Assembly (NCBI GenBank): GCA_947629955.1
Contig: CANRFT010000001.1
Location: 1-64,000, forward strand
DNA: 64,000 nucleotides
Source: an uncultured Oscillospiraceae bacterium
Lineage (GTDB): Bacteria; Bacillota; Clostridia; Oscillospirales; Oscillospiraceae
Direction: 5' to 3'
Each line of letters begins with the position of its first letter. Positions within the stretch are counted from its first letter, which is position 1. Shown here piece by piece: positions 18,625 to 29,990 of this stretch. The notes beneath the pieces are model-generated. The model had not been told where the DNA came from and searched no databases. It was given only the letters and a program-made list of their open reading frames with translations. A program made the translations under genes and the position numbers.

Positions 18625-20451
18625 GTGACCTTTGAGGAACTGCGGGACAAGGCCCACGCCCTGCCCCTGAAGCCCGGCGTCTACATCATGCAGAACGCCA
18701 AGAGCGAAGTCATCTACGTGGGCAAGGCCAAGGCCCTGAAAAACCGGGTGAGCCAGTACTTCCAGGACCAGGACCGGCACAATCTCAAGACGCGGACCAT
18801 GGTCAGCCAGATCGACCACTTCGACGTCATCGTGGTCCAGTCGGAATTTGAGGCGCTGGTGCTGGAGTGCTCCCTCATCAAGCGGCATATGCCCCGGTAC
18901 AACATCCTGCTCAAGGACAGCAAGGGCTTCCCCTTCATCCGCCTGTCCGTCCAGGAGGAGTACCCCCGGTTCTCCCTGGCCGCCAGAGAGGCCCGGGACG
19001 GGGCCCGGTACTTCGGCCCCTACGGCAGCCGCAGCGCCAGCCACGACGTGATCGACGCCCTCCGCACCGCCCTGAAACTGCCCTCCTGCGCCCGGAAGTT
19101 CCCCAGGGACATCGGGAAAGAGCGGCCCTGCCTCAACTACCACATGGGGGTGTGCGACGGCTACTGCCGCCCCCAGATGGACCAGAGCCAGTACCGGGTG
19201 GCCATCGACCAGGCCATCCGCCTGCTGGAGGGCCGGCTGGACGAGGTGGTGGGGGAGCTCACCGCACAGATGGAGCGGGCGGCGGAGGAGCTGCAATTTG
19301 AGAAGGCCGCCCAGATCCGGGACCGCATCCGTGATCTGCAGATACTGTCCACCAGGCAGAAGGCGGTGGCCGGGGCCTTTGCCGACACCGACGTGGTGGG
19401 ATACCACCGGGGGGAGGCCAGAAGCTGCTTCGTGGTGCTCCACTACCTCCGGGGGGAGCTGGCCGCCAAGGACTGGGAGCTGCTGTCCTTCCCCCTGGAG
19501 GAGGACGCGGGGGAGACGGTGGCCGCCCTCACCGCCCAGTATTACACGGCCCGGGGCCACCTGCCCCGGCAGATCCTGCTGCCTATGGAGTTCGAGGGCA
19601 GGGAGGACCTGGCCCGGCTGCTCACTGAGAACGCGGGCCGTAAAGTGGAGCTCCTTGTCCCCCAGCGGGGGGAAAAGGCGGAGCTCACCCGCATGGCCTG
19701 TGAGAACGCCCAGGAGGAGGTCCTCCGGGCCACCACCGCCGAGGAGCGCCGCTCCAAACTCACCGAGGCGCTGGGGAGCCTGCTGGGGCTGGAAAACCCG
19801 CCCCACCGTATCGAGGCCTTCGACATCTCCAACACCGGCAGCGCCGACATCGTGGCCTCCATGACCGTCCACATCGACGGCAAGCCCCTGAAGCGGGATT
19901 ACCGGCTGTTCATCCTGAAGGACATGGCCCACGCCGACGACTACGCCTCCATGAGGCAGGTGGTGGAGCGCCGGTTCCGCCGGTATCTGGACGGGGACGA
20001 GAAGTTCGCCGTCCTGCCCGATCTGCTGCTGATGGACGGCGGCGCGGGCCAGGTGGCTATGGCTGAGGAGGCCATGGCGGAGCTGGACATCCGGGTGCCG
20101 GTGTTCGGCATGGTGAAGGACGGCCGGCACCGCACCCGCGCCCTGGTGGCCGGGGACGGCCGGGAGATCGGCATCCAGCACATCCCCGCCCTGTTCGCTA
20201 TGGTGGGCCGCATCCAGGAGGAGACCCACCGGGCGGCCATCGAGTTCCACCGGAAGCGGCAGCAGGGCCACATGAAGGGCTCCGCCCTGGACGGCATCCC
20301 CGGCGTGGGGCCGAAAAAGAAGGCCGCGCTGCTGAAAGCCTTCAAGAGCGTCAAGGCCGTGAAGGCCGCCTCGGCGGAGGAGCTGGCCGCCGTGGTGGGG
20401 CAGAAGACCGCGGAGACGGTCATGGCCCATTTCCGCCAGGAGACGGCGTAG
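18625..20451 (+). CDS. uvrC: Excinuclease ABC subunit C
   Basis: A 608-residue UvrC, which makes both incisions in nucleotide excision repair. The GIY-YIG nuclease is at the N-terminus (PGVYIMQN, VIYVGKAKALKNR near residues 17-45). A UVR motif lies near 210-245 (FEKAAQIRDRIRDL). The C-terminal RNase H-like nuclease contains EAFDISNTGS and LLLMDGGAGQV, and a helix-hairpin-helix pair ends the protein (IPGVGPKKKAALL). GTG 18625 behind AAGGGGGGAGG gives the usual length; the frame is open further upstream without a ribosome site. The stop TAG belongs to a GTAGGGG repeat. Confidence 0.95.
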   Translation: MTFEELRDKAHALPLKPGVYIMQNAKSEVIYVGKAKALKNRVSQYFQDQDRHNLKTRTMVSQIDHFDVIVVQSEFEALVLECSLIKRHMPRYNILLKDSKGFPFIRLSVQEEYPRFSLAAREARDGARYFGPYGSRSASHDVIDALRTALKLPSCARKFPRDIGKERPCLNYHMGVCDGYCRPQMDQSQYRVAIDQAIRLLEGRLDEVVGELTAQMERAAEELQFEKAAQIRDRIRDLQILSTRQKAVAGAFADTDVVGYHRGEARSCFVVLHYLRGELAAKDWELLSFPLEEDAGETVAALTAQYYTARGHLPRQILLPMEFEGREDLARLLTENAGRKVELLVPQRGEKAELTRMACENAQEEVLRATTAEERRSKLTEALGSLLGLENPPHRIEAFDISNTGSADIVASMTVHIDGKPLKRDYRLFILKDMAHADDYASMRQVVERRFRRYLDGDEKFAVLPDLLLMDGGAGQVAMAEEAMAELDIRVPVFGMVKDGRHRTRALVAGDGREIGIQHIPALFAMVGRIQEETHRAAIEFHRKRQQGHMKGSALDGIPGVGPKKKAALLKAFKSVKAVKAASAEELAAVVGQKTAETVMAHFRQETA

Positions 20452-20640
20452 GGGCGGCCCCATGTGGCCGCCTGTAGGGGTCGCCGCCCTCGGCGACCCG
20501 TTTTCACCGGCGTATCATAGGGCGGGCCGCCCGGGGGGCGGCCCCATGTGGCCGCCCGTAGGGGCCGCCGCCCTCGGCGACCCGTTTTCACCGGCGTATC
20601 ATAGGGCGGGCCGCCCAGGGGGGCGGCCCCTACAGAGCGT
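20448..20640. repeat. GTAGGGG-family repeat, copy 3, with 84-bp tandem duplication
   Basis: The block starts at the GTAGGGG that holds the uvrC stop codon. A unit starting GTAGGGGTCGCCGCC at 20474 is repeated at 20558 (GTAGGGGCCGCCGCC), a period of 84 bp. Both units contain the shared segment CCCGTTTTCACCGGCGTATC. It ends with GGGGCGGCCCCTACAG. Confidence 0.85.
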
Positions 20641-24534: not shown

Positions 24535-24679
24535 GGCGCCTGGACGCATAAACGCCGGGCCGGCGCCATAGACTGAAATCAACAACATGAAACGGACGGG
24601 AGGGGCGTAAAGAGACTGTGAGGGTTTCTTGCGCCCTTCCGTGCTGATGCGGTATTTTCCGGGACAGGAGGGAGAGGAC

Positions 24680-27139
24680 ATGGAACAGCGGGAGCGAAAG
24701 CCCCGGGGCGACCACGGGAAGAGCAACCGGAGCCTGCTGCGGCGCACCATCTTCCTGATGGCCGTGATGGGCGTGCTGGTGTTCGTTCCCCTGGTGGTGC
24801 AGCTGGTGCGGCTGCAGATCGTGGAGTACGACAGCTGGAAGCAGCGGGCAGCCAACCAGCAGACCCAGAGCGTGGCCATCCCCGCCAACCGGGGCACCAT
24901 CTACGACAGCCAGGGCCGCGCCCTGGCCATGTCCGCCACGGTGTACCAGCTGATCCTGTCCCCCAAGGACGTGACCGCCCTCGTCAACAAGGACAGCAAG
25001 GACTTCAAGGACGCCGAGGGCAATTTCAACCAGGCCGCCTATGACGCCGCCGTCCAGGCCAAGCGCGCCGTCATCGTGGACTGGCTGGTGAGCAACCTGG
25101 GCATGGACGAGGAAAACCTCTGGAAGCGCATCGAGAACACCAAGTCCGCCTATGAGAAGCTGGCCACCGAGCTGGAGGAGGAGCAGGCCGAGCAGGTGCG
25201 GCAGTTCGTCAAGGAGCAGCACCTGTCCAACTCCCTGTACCTGGTGGACTCCAGCAAGCGGTACTATCCCTTCTCCTCCGTGGCCTCCCATCTGCTGGGG
25301 TATATGTCCGAGAACAAGGACAGCGGCGGCAAAAAGGTGGGCGCCATGGGCATCGAGGCCATCTACGAGGACGCCCTCTCCGGCGAGCTGGGCCGCCAGG
25401 TGTACTCCAAAAACGGCGCCGGGCAGGAGATGATGTCCGGCTATGAGATGTATTTCGACGCCGAGAACGGCTACGATTTGACCCTCACCATCGACGAGCG
25501 GATCCAGTCCCTGCTGGAGCAGGCGCTGGCCGAGGGCGTGGAGACCTACGACGTGCAGGCCGGGGCCTTCGCCGTGGCCATCGACCCCCAGACCGGGGCG
25601 GTGCTGGGGATGGCCTCCTCCCCGGAGTTCGACCCCAACAGCTACGCCTCCATCGTCGACCAGGACCTGCTGAACGAGCTGGCGGAGATCGCCGAGCAGT
25701 ACGGCGCCGACAGCGAGGAGTACGGCGAGGCCGTCTCCGCTGCCCGGAACCAGCAGTGGCGGAACAAGGCCCTGGCCGACACCTATGAGCCCGGCTCCAC
25801 CTTCAAGCCGCTGACCGTGGCCATGGCCCTGGAGCAGGGGATCATCTCCCTGGACGACCACTACTACTGCGGCGGCTCCTACACCGTGGCGGGCCGGTCC
25901 ATCAGCTGCAGCAAGCGCACCGGCCACGGGGATCAGACTCTCACCGAGGCGGTGGGCAACTCCTGCAACGTGGCCATGATGCAGATCGCCGAGAAGATCG
26001 GCGCCTCCACCTTCTACGACTACCTGGAGAACTACGGGCTGAAGGACTCCACCGGCATCGACCTGGCGGGGGAAGGCACCAGCCTGTTCTGGAGCAGGAA
26101 CGACTTCACCGGCCCCTACGGCGCCCAGTCCCTGGCGGTGGCCTCCTTCGGCCAGACCTTCAAGGTCACCCCCATCCAGATGATCACCGCCTTCGCCTCG
26201 GTGATCAACGGCGGCCATCTGCTGGAGCCCTATGTGGTGCAGTCCATCCGGGACGACGAGGGCAGCACCGTCTACTACCACGAGACCACCGAGGTGCGCC
26301 AGACCATCAGCGAGTCGGTGTCGGAGACCATCCGGGGCATCCTGGAGTACGTGGTCACCGACGCCGGCGGCAAAAACGCCTATCAGGCGGGCTACCGCAT
26401 CGCCGGCAAGACGGGCACCTCCGAGAAGATCGAGCTGAAGGCCACCGACCCGGACAACGACGACGTGATCTGCTCCTTCATGGGCTACGCCCCGGCGGAC
26501 GACCCCAAGGTGCTGGTGCTGCTGGCCTATGACACCCCCAAGCGCTCCTCCCCCCACTCCAACTACACCCCCAACGGCACCTACATCAGCGGCGGCAACT
26601 TGGCCGCCCCCATGGCGGGCAAGCTGATCGCCGGCATCCTGGACTACATGGGGGTGGAGAAGGAGTACACCGCGGAGGAGCTGTCCGGCGCGGACGTGTC
26701 GGTCCGCAACGTCACCGGGATCGATGTGGCCACAGCCATGAGCCGGCTGAAGGGCCAGGGCCTCGCCTGGCGCACCGTGGGCAGCGGCGCCAAGGTGACG
26801 CGGCAGGTGCCCTCCTCCGGGGTGTCCATTCCCGGCGGCTCCACCGTGGTGCTGTACCTGGGGGACGAGGCCCCGCCGGAGCAGGTGGAGGCGCCCGATC
26901 TCTTCGGGCTGTCCCCCACCGAGGCCAAGACGAAGCTGGAGGACGCGGGGCTGTTCCTGCGGCCCTCCGGCGCGGCCAGCCTCACCGACCCCTCCGTCAG
27001 GGCCATCTCCCAGTCCATCGCGGCGGGGACGGCGGTGGCGCCGGGCACGGTGATCGACGTACAGTTTGCCAACGACGTGGACGACTACGATGTGGAGAAC
27101 AACAATGGCACAGAAGGTATCCAGGCTCCAACCGAATAG
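24680..27139 (+). CDS. Class B penicillin-binding protein with PASTA domains
   Basis: An 819-residue transpeptidase of the FtsI/SpoVD group. It has a short cytoplasmic tail, one membrane helix (IFLMAVMGVLVFVPLVVQLV), the dimerisation domain, and the catalytic motifs S373-TFK (EPGSTFKPL), S428-C-N and K577-T-G. Two PASTA repeats occupy about 675-810. In a sporulator it could be the vegetative septal PBP2B or the spore cortex SpoVD; the cluster position suggests the septal enzyme. ATG 24680 follows GGAGGGAGAGG. A hairpin, ACGGGAGGGGCG with CGCCCTTCCGT, lies in the 145-base leader. Confidence 0.93.
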   Translation: MEQRERKPRGDHGKSNRSLLRRTIFLMAVMGVLVFVPLVVQLVRLQIVEYDSWKQRAANQQTQSVAIPANRGTIYDSQGRALAMSATVYQLILSPKDVTALVNKDSKDFKDAEGNFNQAAYDAAVQAKRAVIVDWLVSNLGMDEENLWKRIENTKSAYEKLATELEEEQAEQVRQFVKEQHLSNSLYLVDSSKRYYPFSSVASHLLGYMSENKDSGGKKVGAMGIEAIYEDALSGELGRQVYSKNGAGQEMMSGYEMYFDAENGYDLTLTIDERIQSLLEQALAEGVETYDVQAGAFAVAIDPQTGAVLGMASSPEFDPNSYASIVDQDLLNELAEIAEQYGADSEEYGEAVSAARNQQWRNKALADTYEPGSTFKPLTVAMALEQGIISLDDHYYCGGSYTVAGRSISCSKRTGHGDQTLTEAVGNSCNVAMMQIAEKIGASTFYDYLENYGLKDSTGIDLAGEGTSLFWSRNDFTGPYGAQSLAVASFGQTFKVTPIQMITAFASVINGGHLLEPYVVQSIRDDEGSTVYYHETTEVRQTISESVSETIRGILEYVVTDAGGKNAYQAGYRIAGKTGTSEKIELKATDPDNDDVICSFMGYAPADDPKVLVLLAYDTPKRSSPHSNYTPNGTYISGGNLAAPMAGKLIAGILDYMGVEKEYTAEELSGADVSVRNVTGIDVATAMSRLKGQGLAWRTVGSGAKVTRQVPSSGVSIPGGSTVVLYLGDEAPPEQVEAPDLFGLSPTEAKTKLEDAGLFLRPSGAASLTDPSVRAISQSIAAGTAVAPGTVIDVQFANDVDDYDVENNNGTEGIQAPTE

Positions 27140-27677
27140 CGGGCTGCCCGTGGCGGTGGTGGGCGCCGGCAGGACGCTGACCGCCGGCCTGCTCCGCCGC
27201 CTCACCGGCCTGCCCGTGGAGAAGCTGACCCCCTATCAGGCCGCCCGGTCCCAGCGGGACTGGCGGGCCGTCGTGGTGGAGAACTACGACCTGCCCGCCT
27301 CCCGGGGGCTGACCGCCTGCGCCGCCGCCCGGTGGCAGCTGGCCGGCCATACGGACAGGATCGTGGTGGGGCTGGACGACCCGGAGGGGAGACGGCTGGC
27401 CGCCGCCCTGCCGGGACTGGTGTTCGCCTACTCCGATGGCCGTCCTCAGGCTGACCTCACCGCGAAAAACGTCCGCCTCCGGGGCGGGCGGATGGAGTTC
27501 GAGGCCCTTACCGACGGGGAGCTGACCCGTGTCCGGGCGCCCTGGGACGGGGAGCCCCGGTTCTATGACCTCTTGGCGGCCCTGGCCGGGGCCCTGGCCT
27601 TGGACGTGCCCCTGGAGGAGGCGGCCGCCATCCTGGCCGGAGAGGATGTCCGCCGGTCCGCCGGTTCCATCGCCTGA
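27105..27677 (+). CDS. Degenerate MurE-like protein (putative pseudoenzyme)
   Basis: A 190-residue protein at the place where murE normally lies. Residues 15-30 (LPVAVVGAGRTLTAGLL) align with the Mur ligase P-loop region, but GTNGKTT is reduced to G20-A-G-R23-T. Residues 88-104 (VGLDDPEGRRLAAALPG) follow the MurE NxDDxxG pattern, and ADLTAKNVRLRGGRMEFEAL plus FYDLLAALAGALALDVPLEE match the end of the MurE central domain. The UDP-MurNAc-binding domain, most of the ATPase core and the C-terminal domain are missing, so ligase activity is not expected. It overlaps the PBP gene by 35 bases; GGAG lies 7 bases before ATG 27105. The frame is intact and codon use is normal, which argues for a retained function. 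Confidence 0.8.
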   Translation: MAQKVSRLQPNSGLPVAVVGAGRTLTAGLLRRLTGLPVEKLTPYQAARSQRDWRAVVVENYDLPASRGLTACAAARWQLAGHTDRIVVGLDDPEGRRLAAALPGLVFAYSDGRPQADLTAKNVRLRGGRMEFEALTDGELTRVRAPWDGEPRFYDLLAALAGALALDVPLEEAAAILAGEDVRRSAGSIA

Positions 27678-27732
27678 TCTGTTCGGCAGTTGAGAGGGAA
27701 GAGAATACAAAGGAAGGCTGTGAAGGTTTGAC

Positions 27733-28719
27733 ATGAGGATATTGCTTGCGGCGGTGGCCGCGTTCGTCATCTCGCTGGTCCTGGGCTGGTTCCTGATCCC
27801 CGCCCTGCGGGCCCTCCACGCGGGGCAGTCCATCAAGGAGATCGGCCCCAACTGGCACAAGTCGAAGGAGGGCACCCCCACCATGGGCGGGCTGATGTTC
27901 ATCGCCGCCGCCCTCGCGGCCGTCGTGGTCTTCGGCTGGCGGGACATGGCCGGGGGCGACTGGACCGCCATGACGGTGCTGGGCTTCTCCTGCGTCTTCG
28001 GCTGCATCGGCTTCGCCGACGACTTCGCCAAGGTGCGGGGCCACCACAACGACGGCATCTCCGCCGGGCTGCGCCTGCTGTTGGAGCTGGCCGCCGCCCT
28101 GGCCTTCCTGGCCCTGCTGCGGCTGACTGAGGGCCTGTCCCCCAACCTGTATATCCCCTTTGTGAACCTGTACCTGCCCCTGCCCTGGCCGGTGTACCTG
28201 ACCTTTGCCGCCTTCGTGATCGTGGGCTGCGTCAACGCGGTGAACCTCACCGACGGGCTGGACGGTCTGGCGGGCTCGGTGACCCTGGCGGTGATGGTGT
28301 TCTTCGCCGTGCTGTCCCTCTGGTGGGACAGGGGGCCCGCGGGCATCTTCGCCGGGGCGCTGGCGGGGGGCCTTCTGGGCTTCCTGGTGTATAACTTCCA
28401 CCCGGCCAAGGTGTTCATGGGGGACACCGGCTCCCTGTTCCTGGGGGGCGCGGTGTGCGGCCTGGCCTTCGCCCTGGACGCGCCCCTGGTGCTGGTGCCG
28501 GTGGGGATCATCTACATCGCCGAGACCATGAGCGACATCATCCAGGTGACCTATTTCAAGCTCACCCACGGCAAGCGGATCTTCCGCATGGCCCCTCTCC
28601 ACCACCACCTGGAGCTGGGCGGCTGGAGCGAGGTGCGCATCGTGCTGACCTTCACGGGCATCACGGTGGCCTTCTGCCTGCTGGCCTTTGTGGGCGTGAT
28701 GTACCGCTATTCTATCTGA
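27733..28719 (+). CDS. mraY: Phospho-MurNAc-pentapeptide translocase MraY
   Basis: A 328-residue, 10-helix membrane enzyme that makes lipid I from UDP-MurNAc-pentapeptide and undecaprenyl phosphate. Visible signatures are GTPTMGGLMFI near residue 47, FADDFAK near 95, NAVNLTDGLDGLAG near 168 and the APLHHHLE loop near 287. The length is typical. The start is ATG 27733. It follows the MurE-like gene directly. Confidence 0.96.
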   Translation: MRILLAAVAAFVISLVLGWFLIPALRALHAGQSIKEIGPNWHKSKEGTPTMGGLMFIAAALAAVVVFGWRDMAGGDWTAMTVLGFSCVFGCIGFADDFAKVRGHHNDGISAGLRLLLELAAALAFLALLRLTEGLSPNLYIPFVNLYLPLPWPVYLTFAAFVIVGCVNAVNLTDGLDGLAGSVTLAVMVFFAVLSLWWDRGPAGIFAGALAGGLLGFLVYNFHPAKVFMGDTGSLFLGGAVCGLAFALDAPLVLVPVGIIYIAETMSDIIQVTYFKLTHGKRIFRMAPLHHHLELGGWSEVRIVLTFTGITVAFCLLAFVGVMYRYSI

Positions 28720-28757
28720 CCTGAGTTGAAGTTCAAAAAGAGAGGAGGAGACAGCGT

Positions 28758-29990
28758 ATGGCCATCCGCAGAAAAGCCCGCCGGGACCTGACCGCCGAGC
28801 AGCAGCTGGCAAAGGGGCCCATGGACCTGATCTTCCTGGCGCTGGTGCTGCTGCTGACGGCCATCGGCCTTATCATGCTGCTGTCCTCCTCCTTCGCCAT
28901 CGCCATGTACGACTCCTATGCGGGCATACACACCGGCGGGAATCCCTATTACTACCTCATCCACCAGGGGGGGTTCGCCGTCGCCGGCCTGGTGATCATG
29001 TATGTGATCTCCCGCATGGACTACCAGTATTTCCGCCTGCTGTCGGTGCCCGCCCTCATCGGCTCCATCGTTCTGCTGCTGCTGGTCTTCACCCCCCTGG
29101 GGCGGTCCAGCAACGGCGCCCGCCGGTGGCTGTGGCTGGGCTTCACCTTCCAGCCCTCGGAGATCGCCAAGGTGGCCATCATCATGTTCTTCGCCGCCCG
29201 GCTGTCCAAGCGGAACGACGAGCTGCGCGCCCCGCCCAAAAAGTGGAGCAGGCGCACCCTCACCGGCCGGATCGGGGCCCTTTTGGACCGGATCGGCTTT
29301 CTGGAACTGGTGCCCTACGGGGCCATCATGCTGATCGTGCTGTTCCTGCTGTATAAGGAGCCCCATATGTCCGCCATGATCCTGATTATCGTGGCCGCCG
29401 GCTCGGTGCTGCTGGTGTCGGGGGTCAGCCTGGGCTGGTTCGCCGCGGCGGGGGCCGCGGTGGGCGGCGGGCTGTGGTTCATCATCACCCAGACCTCGTA
29501 TATGACCAAGCGCATCAACGTCTGGCTGGATCCCACCAGCGACCTGCAGCACGGCGGCTACCAGCCCTGGCAGGCCCGGATCGCCATCGGCTCCGGCGGC
29601 CTGCTGGGCAAGGGGCTGGGCAACAGCATCCAGAAGTACCGGTTTCTGCCGGAGATGCAGAACGACTGCATCTTCGCCATCGTGTGCGAGGAGCTGGGCC
29701 TCATCGGCGCCTGCGTGATCATCGCCCTGTTCATGCTGCTGATCATCCGGGGCTACTGGCTGGCCATCCACGCCAGGGACCGGTTCGGCACCCTGCTCAT
29801 CGTGGGCATCATCACCCTGCTGGCGGCCCAGACCTTTTTCAACATCGGCGTGGTCACGGGGGTCATCCCCACCACCGGCATCTCGCTGCCCTTCTTCAGC
29901 TACGGCGGCACGGCGCTGGTGATCCAGCTGGCGGAGATGGGCATCGTGCTCAGCGTGTCCCGGCAGATCACCGCGCCCAAAGTAGAGTGA
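28758..29990 (+). CDS. ftsW: Septal peptidoglycan polymerase FtsW
   Basis: A 410-residue SEDS-family glycosyltransferase with about 10 membrane helices, which polymerises lipid II together with the class B PBP. Hallmarks are GARRWLWLGFTFQPSEIAK near residue 115, the QAxxAIGSGGLLGKGLGNS region, PEMQNDCIFAIVCEELG, and PTTGISLPFFSYGGTAL near the end. SpoVE, the sporulation paralogue, is the alternative; cluster position favours FtsW. The start is ATG 28758 behind AGAGGAGG. Confidence 0.93.
   Translation: MAIRRKARRDLTAEQQLAKGPMDLIFLALVLLLTAIGLIMLLSSSFAIAMYDSYAGIHTGGNPYYYLIHQGGFAVAGLVIMYVISRMDYQYFRLLSVPALIGSIVLLLLVFTPLGRSSNGARRWLWLGFTFQPSEIAKVAIIMFFAARLSKRNDELRAPPKKWSRRTLTGRIGALLDRIGFLELVPYGAIMLIVLFLLYKEPHMSAMILIIVAAGSVLLVSGVSLGWFAAAGAAVGGGLWFIITQTSYMTKRINVWLDPTSDLQHGGYQPWQARIAIGSGGLLGKGLGNSIQKYRFLPEMQNDCIFAIVCEELGLIGACVIIALFMLLIIRGYWLAIHARDRFGTLLIVGIITLLAAQTFFNIGVVTGVIPTTGISLPFFSYGGTALVIQLAEMGIVLSVSRQITAPKVE

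Follow-up and report, generated by a model that had tools for sequence, protein, structure and literature searches.

The division cluster of an uncultured Oscillospiraceae bacterium of the gut encodes, in the place of murE between a penicillin-binding protein (PBP) gene and mraY, a small protein that descends from the MurE of this slot and has lost its catalytic motifs. The protein, here called mini-MurE, is under selection in one genus, and the same piece of MurE has been retained in several separate reductions of the slot protein in genomes that carry another, full-length MurE (MurE2). We consider it very likely that mini-MurE is a selected MurE-derived protein without MurE chemistry; whether it is an adaptor of wall synthesis is close to an even call. 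The window is the whole stretch of DNA analysed, 64,000 nucleotides of contig CANRFT010000001.1. The relevant features are:

24629..27139, + strand: upstream gene, PBP (ORF, start codon uncertain; same neighbour in relatives)
27105..27677, + strand: mini-MurE gene, 190 aa, encoding a MurE central domain devoid of catalytic motifs (ORF, 39 distinct intact relatives, fold, profile match to slot MurE)
27105..27139, + strand: overlap of the mini-MurE start with the PBP gene end, 35 nt (ORF coordinates)
27162..27176, + strand: GAGRT, eroded P-loop (GTNGKT in full-length slot MurE), residues 20-24 (motif alignment)
27372..27395, + strand: LDDPEGRR, retained from NLDDEAGR of slot MurE (motif alignment; L90, D91, E94, G95 and R97 invariant in 36 rows)
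27429..27470, + strand: YSDGRPQADLTAKN, hallmark of the retained non-catalytic module (invariant in 36 rows at 12 of 14 residues; kept in eroded proteins; synonymous codons free)
27456..27542, + strand: small beta-sheet of the kept module, residues 118-146 (AlphaFold2 strands 118-126, 129-135 and 140-146; segment identity)
27561..27599, + strand: helix, residues 153-165, derived from FxxYNALAALA in slot MurE (model helix; motif alignment)
27733..28719, + strand: downstream gene, mraY (ORF; same neighbour in relatives)
L248 70-1302 and L249 2672-3883: slot MurEs of two other genomes without the kept module (natural deletion), 410 and 403 aa
DISPLACEMENT: the window's genome encodes MurF plus two MurE-type ligases in tandem

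The ORF runs from the ATG at 27105 to the stop codon at 27675-27677. It lies exactly where the initial annotation of this DNA had placed a 190-aa protein overlapping the PBP gene and preceding mraY, its frame is open, and mraY starts (27733) 55 nt beyond its end. Two landmarks named in that annotation, GAGRT and DDPEGRRLAAALPG, are found in the protein. Only the central domain is present, the UDP-MurNAc-binding and C-terminal domains being absent as had been described. Elsewhere in the window, two tandem 84-nt copies that are 96% identical (20451-20618) lie at the end of a 636-aa ORF ending at 20451.

Searches with the single window sequence are nearly blind. There was no match in Pfam; in NCBIfam the best match was murF (E 0.011), followed by MurE (NF001126, E 0.018), with none to TIGR01085 (cut-off 257); and the PDB search returned only uridine phosphorylase (E 1.1). 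A Pfam scan of 36 minis detected Mur_ligase_M in three (best E 0.0017), while five other families, each seen in one of the 36, were taken as chance. The PDB profile search ranked MurF first (E 8e-4), before a MurE-MurF fusion (0.012), aminopeptidase N (0.075) and PAP11 (0.27). Comparison of the mini family profile with that of slot MurE gave a probability of 99.5 over 130 columns at 41% identity. In the AlphaFold2 model, 171 of the 190 residues align to residues 100-331 of the MurE structure 7d27, and the model spans the central-domain fold of the Mur ligases end to end. The predicted fold is thus Mur-like and matches solved Mur ligase structures, and the earlier statement that most of the ATPase is missing was too strong: the loss concerns the catalytic motifs and some loops. 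By fold, MurE, MurC and MurF match about equally well (Z within 1), so that the assignment to MurE rests on position, profile and intermediates. An origin from MurF was rejected, since the slot protein of the relatives is MurE and the profile and intermediates agree. A search of viral structures with the mini yielded nothing at E 0.001 or better.

Among 150 genomes drawn from the family, 125 contained a match to the mini. Of 18 division-cluster loci of relatives (L038-L055), two hold minis of the same genus (G145, G066), one holds a form of 176 aa (G087), and 15 carry a long ORF of the MurE type (463-550 aa, 14 of them at least 475 aa), in each of the 15 between the PBP gene and mraY. The slot protein is MurE by NCBIfam in G068 (502 bits) and G077 (510 bits; TIGR01085 cut-off 257), which bears out the assignment of the window gene to the murE position. 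In G091 (463 aa) and G026 (490 aa) the slot protein is long and undeleted yet degenerate, several catalytic motifs being eroded, and that of G091 falls under the TIGR01085 cut-off (249.9 vs 257.3). Slot synteny, the profile match (E 3.7e-23) and these intermediates show that the mini descends from slot MurE. A 767-aa frame that resembled a fusion of the mini core and PBP (L123) was discarded as an upstream read-through frame before an ordinary full-length MurE. We use 'crown' as a label for one clade of a 35-row PBP+mraY+ftsW tree. In crown-clade loci (among L040-L053) the slot gene is directly followed by mraY, and in five outgroup loci (L196, L200, L201, L202, L204) murF lies between murE and mraY. 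The genome G125 encodes an intact slot MurE plus a second MurE-like protein (L252 4489-5988) with DDPD at the DNPR position, which suggests another substrate or a lost function.

Reduction of the slot protein has occurred repeatedly. Further reduced forms were found in G046 and G315 (377 aa each), G134 (354 aa), G055 (326 aa), G013 (223 aa), G115 (217 aa) and G197 (192 aa), in addition to the 176 aa of G087; the reduced frame of G380 ends at a contig end. An order-wide search matched 102 of 295 genomes, among them one of another family, f23, that has a 171-aa protein at the same slot (G617). Of 60 f23 genomes, 31 match, six with short open frames (171, 173, 205, 233, 195 and 182 aa), all between PBP and mraY. 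These six proteins keep a recognisable module (AD..A, FE, R[VI] and a GxPF-type end) but lack the LDD part, and they share only 12 invariant columns. Their profile aligns with full-length slot MurE over 77 columns (E 1.5e-15) and with the genus minis over 76 (E 3.7e-10). The state 'reduced' needs at least three changes on the 35-row tree, whose bootstrap is not settled, and at least four on a 64-row tree built by a quick method with SH-aLRT only; the rows of G050, G048 and G107, whose loci run into contig ends, and of G694, where MurE has no adjacent mraY, were dropped. Parsimony counts alone are the same for gain and loss, but it is implausible that a dead enzyme should have recovered every motif. 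In G153, G121 and G041 the slot holds no gene, which indicates that the job of the slot protein is dispensable in some lineages.

The gene could be kept as an operon spacer, for translational coupling or spacing between PBP and mraY, with the protein itself mattering little. The overlap with the PBP gene and the short gap to mraY fit this idea, and spacing is similarly tight in many relatives. However, 36 aligned minis share 48 invariant columns (the first being the start codon as chosen in the analysis), separate shrinkages have preserved one and the same internal module, and the three genomes with an empty slot closed the gap without any spacer. We therefore regard a spacer as unlikely.

Within the genus, 40 of 42 genomes match the mini, although in one of these (G187) the match is limited to 34 residues in a short frame. 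None was found in G153, where PBP and mraY are adjacent with no gene between, or in G172; mraY was not found in G172 and G187. Carriers include Candidatus Enterenecus species, Pseudoflavonifractor capillosus An386a and Pseudoflavonifractor sp. An44 and An85, the sequences of An386a and An44 being the same as those of G145 and G066. Once identical copies were removed, 39 distinct minis remained (40 if G087 is counted), every one with an open frame; for seven of the 39 the only source is a named record, presumably of a genus genome without a retained locus. One stop was flagged in 18 of the 40 matches; the frames inspected are open across the core, and the flagged stop was taken as the alignment running past the gene's own end. 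Pairwise dN/dS of the mini (Nei-Gojobori, start set at the VAVVG strand, 632 of 741 pairs with mini dS 0.05-1, pairs non-independent) has a median of 0.36 and a maximum of 0.62, with four pairs at 0.6 or above and none of the 632 at 1 or above. The median for mraY, taken as the longest ORF after the mini so that some starts (e.g. L084) may be wrong, is 0.21 (631 pairs). At about 1.7 times the mraY value, constraint on the mini is moderate. Purifying selection thus acts at the protein level in the absence of a catalytic site, as in a functional pseudoenzyme. The comparison of orthologues by dN/dS, which had been proposed together with the claim of selection, places the mini through most of the genus with every distinct copy intact, rather than in this genome only with decay in relatives.

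A slot copy slowly dying since the arrival of MurE2, with the residue as its stable core, would account for the graded lengths (463, 377, 354, 326, 223, 217 and about 180 aa), for the empty slots and for a dN/dS higher than that of mraY. Such a remnant is improbable, since 39 of 39 distinct copies are intact, the present dN/dS speaks against it, and six reduced copies persist in f23. In simulated neutral drift, amino acid identity fell to 51% at 0.3 substitutions per site, whereas species at dS of about 0.3-0.4 from the window keep 81-83%. On stop codons alone the simulation is weak, because the GC-rich sequence leaves 47-60% of drifting frames open. Persistence of the module may in part reflect its being a stable folding core.

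The catalytic apparatus has been dismantled. The P-loop of the window mini reads GAGRTLT, without GxxGK[TS], and the genus minis have a GRGGT-type sequence without the lysine. In nine reduced rows, including the window, TTPE, EVSSH, DHLDFH and the AK motif (YxxAK, the lysine of which is carbamylated in MurE) are all lost, and the P-loop lysine is gone in all except G046; GAGKT is kept in G046 and G315 among the other reduced forms. Of the C-terminal motifs DYAH, DNPR and GKGHE, none is intact in the reduced rows (G046 has DDPR), and the window mini lacks the region with DNPR and GKGHE as well as the Asn of the FxxYN helix. What the nine rows keep is LD or DD at NLDD, a motif of the type Y/F/I-S/A-E/D....AD..A.. 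and a.Y..LA. helix, which is weaker in G087.

In 11 of 11 eroded slot MurEs measured (nine reduced, two degenerate), conservation is highest in two segments, YSENK..TAKN and the beta-sheet. Compared with 12 intact crown MurEs, their identity is 43-74%, against 3-59% for the P-loop, TTPE-EVSSH and DHLDFH-AK segments. Among the intact crown MurEs these two segments are not the top ones (72 and 72 vs 76, 74 and 76), and they rank last in the 21 MurE2 rows (22 and 19). Identity of the module segment between crown and outgroup intact slot MurEs is only 33-34%, so that a function of the module would be clade-specific. The mirror image exists in G006 (410 aa) and G110 (403 aa), of one genus, whose slot MurEs keep the catalytic motifs and lack the NLDD-TAKN-FEAL stretch. 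The kept segment hence seems dispensable for catalysis. Together with the mini, these proteins, whose activity is judged from motifs, suggest that the chemistry and the kept module are separable. Retention of the same piece after several separate shrinkages points to a second job for MurE.

The mini might instead be a ligand sensor, controlling MraY or MurE2 through a retained ability to bind a nucleotide or a UDP-MurNAc-peptide, and retention of the central-domain fold in the AlphaFold2 model is in line with this. The P-loop lysine, TTPE, DHLDFH, AK and the FxxYN asparagine are gone and both outer domains are missing, which makes a sensor improbable. Binding of a Mur precursor, as suggested earlier, becomes less likely for the same losses and because the kept segment is non-catalytic. 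A DNA or RNA control element under the gene, such as an mraY promoter, with the protein incidental, would suit a position just upstream of mraY and is most improbable: synonymous codons of YSDGRPQADLTAKN are freer in the genus (excess codon homozygosity 0.015) than in the remaining gene (0.094) or mraY (0.142), so that constraint acts on the protein, and Rfam gave no match at threshold in 26500-28800 (single match, E 0.44, 21.9 bits vs 71.8).

A search for a full murE elsewhere in the window's genome, which the initial annotation had advised, found the full-length MurE2 (P0002), which scores 394 bits against TIGR01085 (cut-off 257) and carries the ligase motifs including DNPR, as do 21 of 21 MurE2 rows. 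The genome also encodes a MurD-like ligase, a MurT-like protein and a further three-domain Mur ligase, which we take to be MurC. MurE2 is present in 19 of 19 genus genomes tested (the G170 copy split between two contig pieces). Among the 150 genomes drawn, 13 match the MurE2 profile with at least 697 bits, all other matches scoring at most 567.5 bits. Slots were inspected in part of the 150 genomes, and in 12 of the 13 carriers the slot MurE is reduced (9), degenerate (2) or absent (1, G041). The exception, G049, has MurE2 plus an intact slot MurE; conversely, in G121 (71% complete) the slot is empty and MurE2 was not found. MurE2 also occurs in G197, G315 and G380. All six f23 genomes with a reduced slot have a match of at least 693 bits, but f23 scores form a continuum, and six more f23 genomes above 650 bits have their slots outside the inspected set, as do G704, G713, G723 and G734 with two matches each. 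Two f23 genomes, G708 and G707, have a full-length slot MurE plus a second, higher-scoring MurE2-like copy elsewhere (585 and 560 bits). Another MurE therefore seems needed for shrinkage and does not force it.

We rejected the idea that MurE2 arose by recent duplication of slot MurE, because a 100/100 branch separates MurE2 (21 rows) from slot MurE (23 rows); with a single long-branched outgroup row the root falls inside MurE2, so that MurE2 may be more than one clade. A second MurE-like ligase, MurE_C, lies behind an Asp/Glu racemase gene just before MurE2 in the window's own genome (L003 411-1118 and 1153-2703, contig C16). The MurE_C of a relative, G179 (L212 5333-7714, 794 aa), carries an amino-acid kinase domain fused at its C-terminus, a hint of some unusual pathway for peptides or amino acids.

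We propose that, besides catalysis, the slot MurE had another function, non-catalytic and seated in the small beta-sheet module of the central domain. Once a separate full-length MurE2, encoded elsewhere, could do the ligase step, as it presumably does in mini carriers, the slot protein would have lost catalysis and shrunk to the module plus the fold that holds it, staying between the PBP gene and mraY. The mini would then most likely work as an adaptor for a partner present before MurE2, with MraY, MurG, MurF, PBP and FtsW as candidates. As a whole we consider this reading somewhat more probable than not. Intact crown slot MurEs without MurE2 contain the module, which suggests that its function predates MurE2 in the crown and need not involve it. 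With the nucleotide- and substrate-binding motifs gone, protein contact is the simplest remaining role. The earlier view of a MurE-derived pseudoenzyme, selected in the division-cluster slot while a real MurE is encoded elsewhere, is supported in its core, its precursor-binding part being less likely, and a structural or regulatory role near lipid I synthesis, such as scaffolding of MraY, fits as a candidate.

The mini shares with MurE (UDP-MurNAc-tripeptide synthetase, TIGR01085) the slot and the central-domain fold, and is linked to it by degenerate long (G091, G026) and truncated forms; it differs in lacking the N- and C-terminal domains, the P-loop lysine, YxxAK, DNPR, GKGHE and a TIGR01085 match. 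Mur ligases are reported to interact or co-localise with MurG and MraY (available text of PMC6420597), so that a part of MurE could serve as an adaptor there. Together with the operon position, these reports would direct the search for a partner to the lipid I machinery first. The complexes scaffolded by MurG differ in that the available text describes no reduced, non-catalytic ligase (PMC6420597). In titles and abstract openings, including few subscription papers, on truncated dcw murE, inactive Mur ligases, Oscillospiraceae MurE, PAP11 and Mur scaffolds (among them PMC6420597, PMC9434261 and PMC9456514), the mini is not described. A literature search gave no match joining 'pseudoenzyme' with MurE or Mur ligase. 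The plant PAP11/MurE-like subunit of the plastid RNA polymerase has long chains (768 aa), unlike the mini, which is one trimmed domain in a bacterial wall operon. In contrast to PAP11, we know of no link between mini-MurE and transcription.

MurE is usually regarded as a plain ligase. Repeated separate reduction to the same module, at the same slot and with another MurE present, constitutes a natural experiment that splits the chemistry of MurE from another role. The division-cluster MurE of this order may, we tentatively suggest, have a second, non-catalytic adaptor function in the beta-sheet module that ties the precursor pathway to the lipid I or divisome machinery, lineages with MurE2 having repeatedly stripped the enzyme to the adaptor. 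The mini (171-233 aa in the smaller forms) is a short, testable protein for contacts between the cytoplasmic Mur enzymes and the membrane steps of wall synthesis. If the proposal is true, these proteins would form a new family of Mur-derived wall-synthesis adaptors and show where ordinary MurE may contact its partners.
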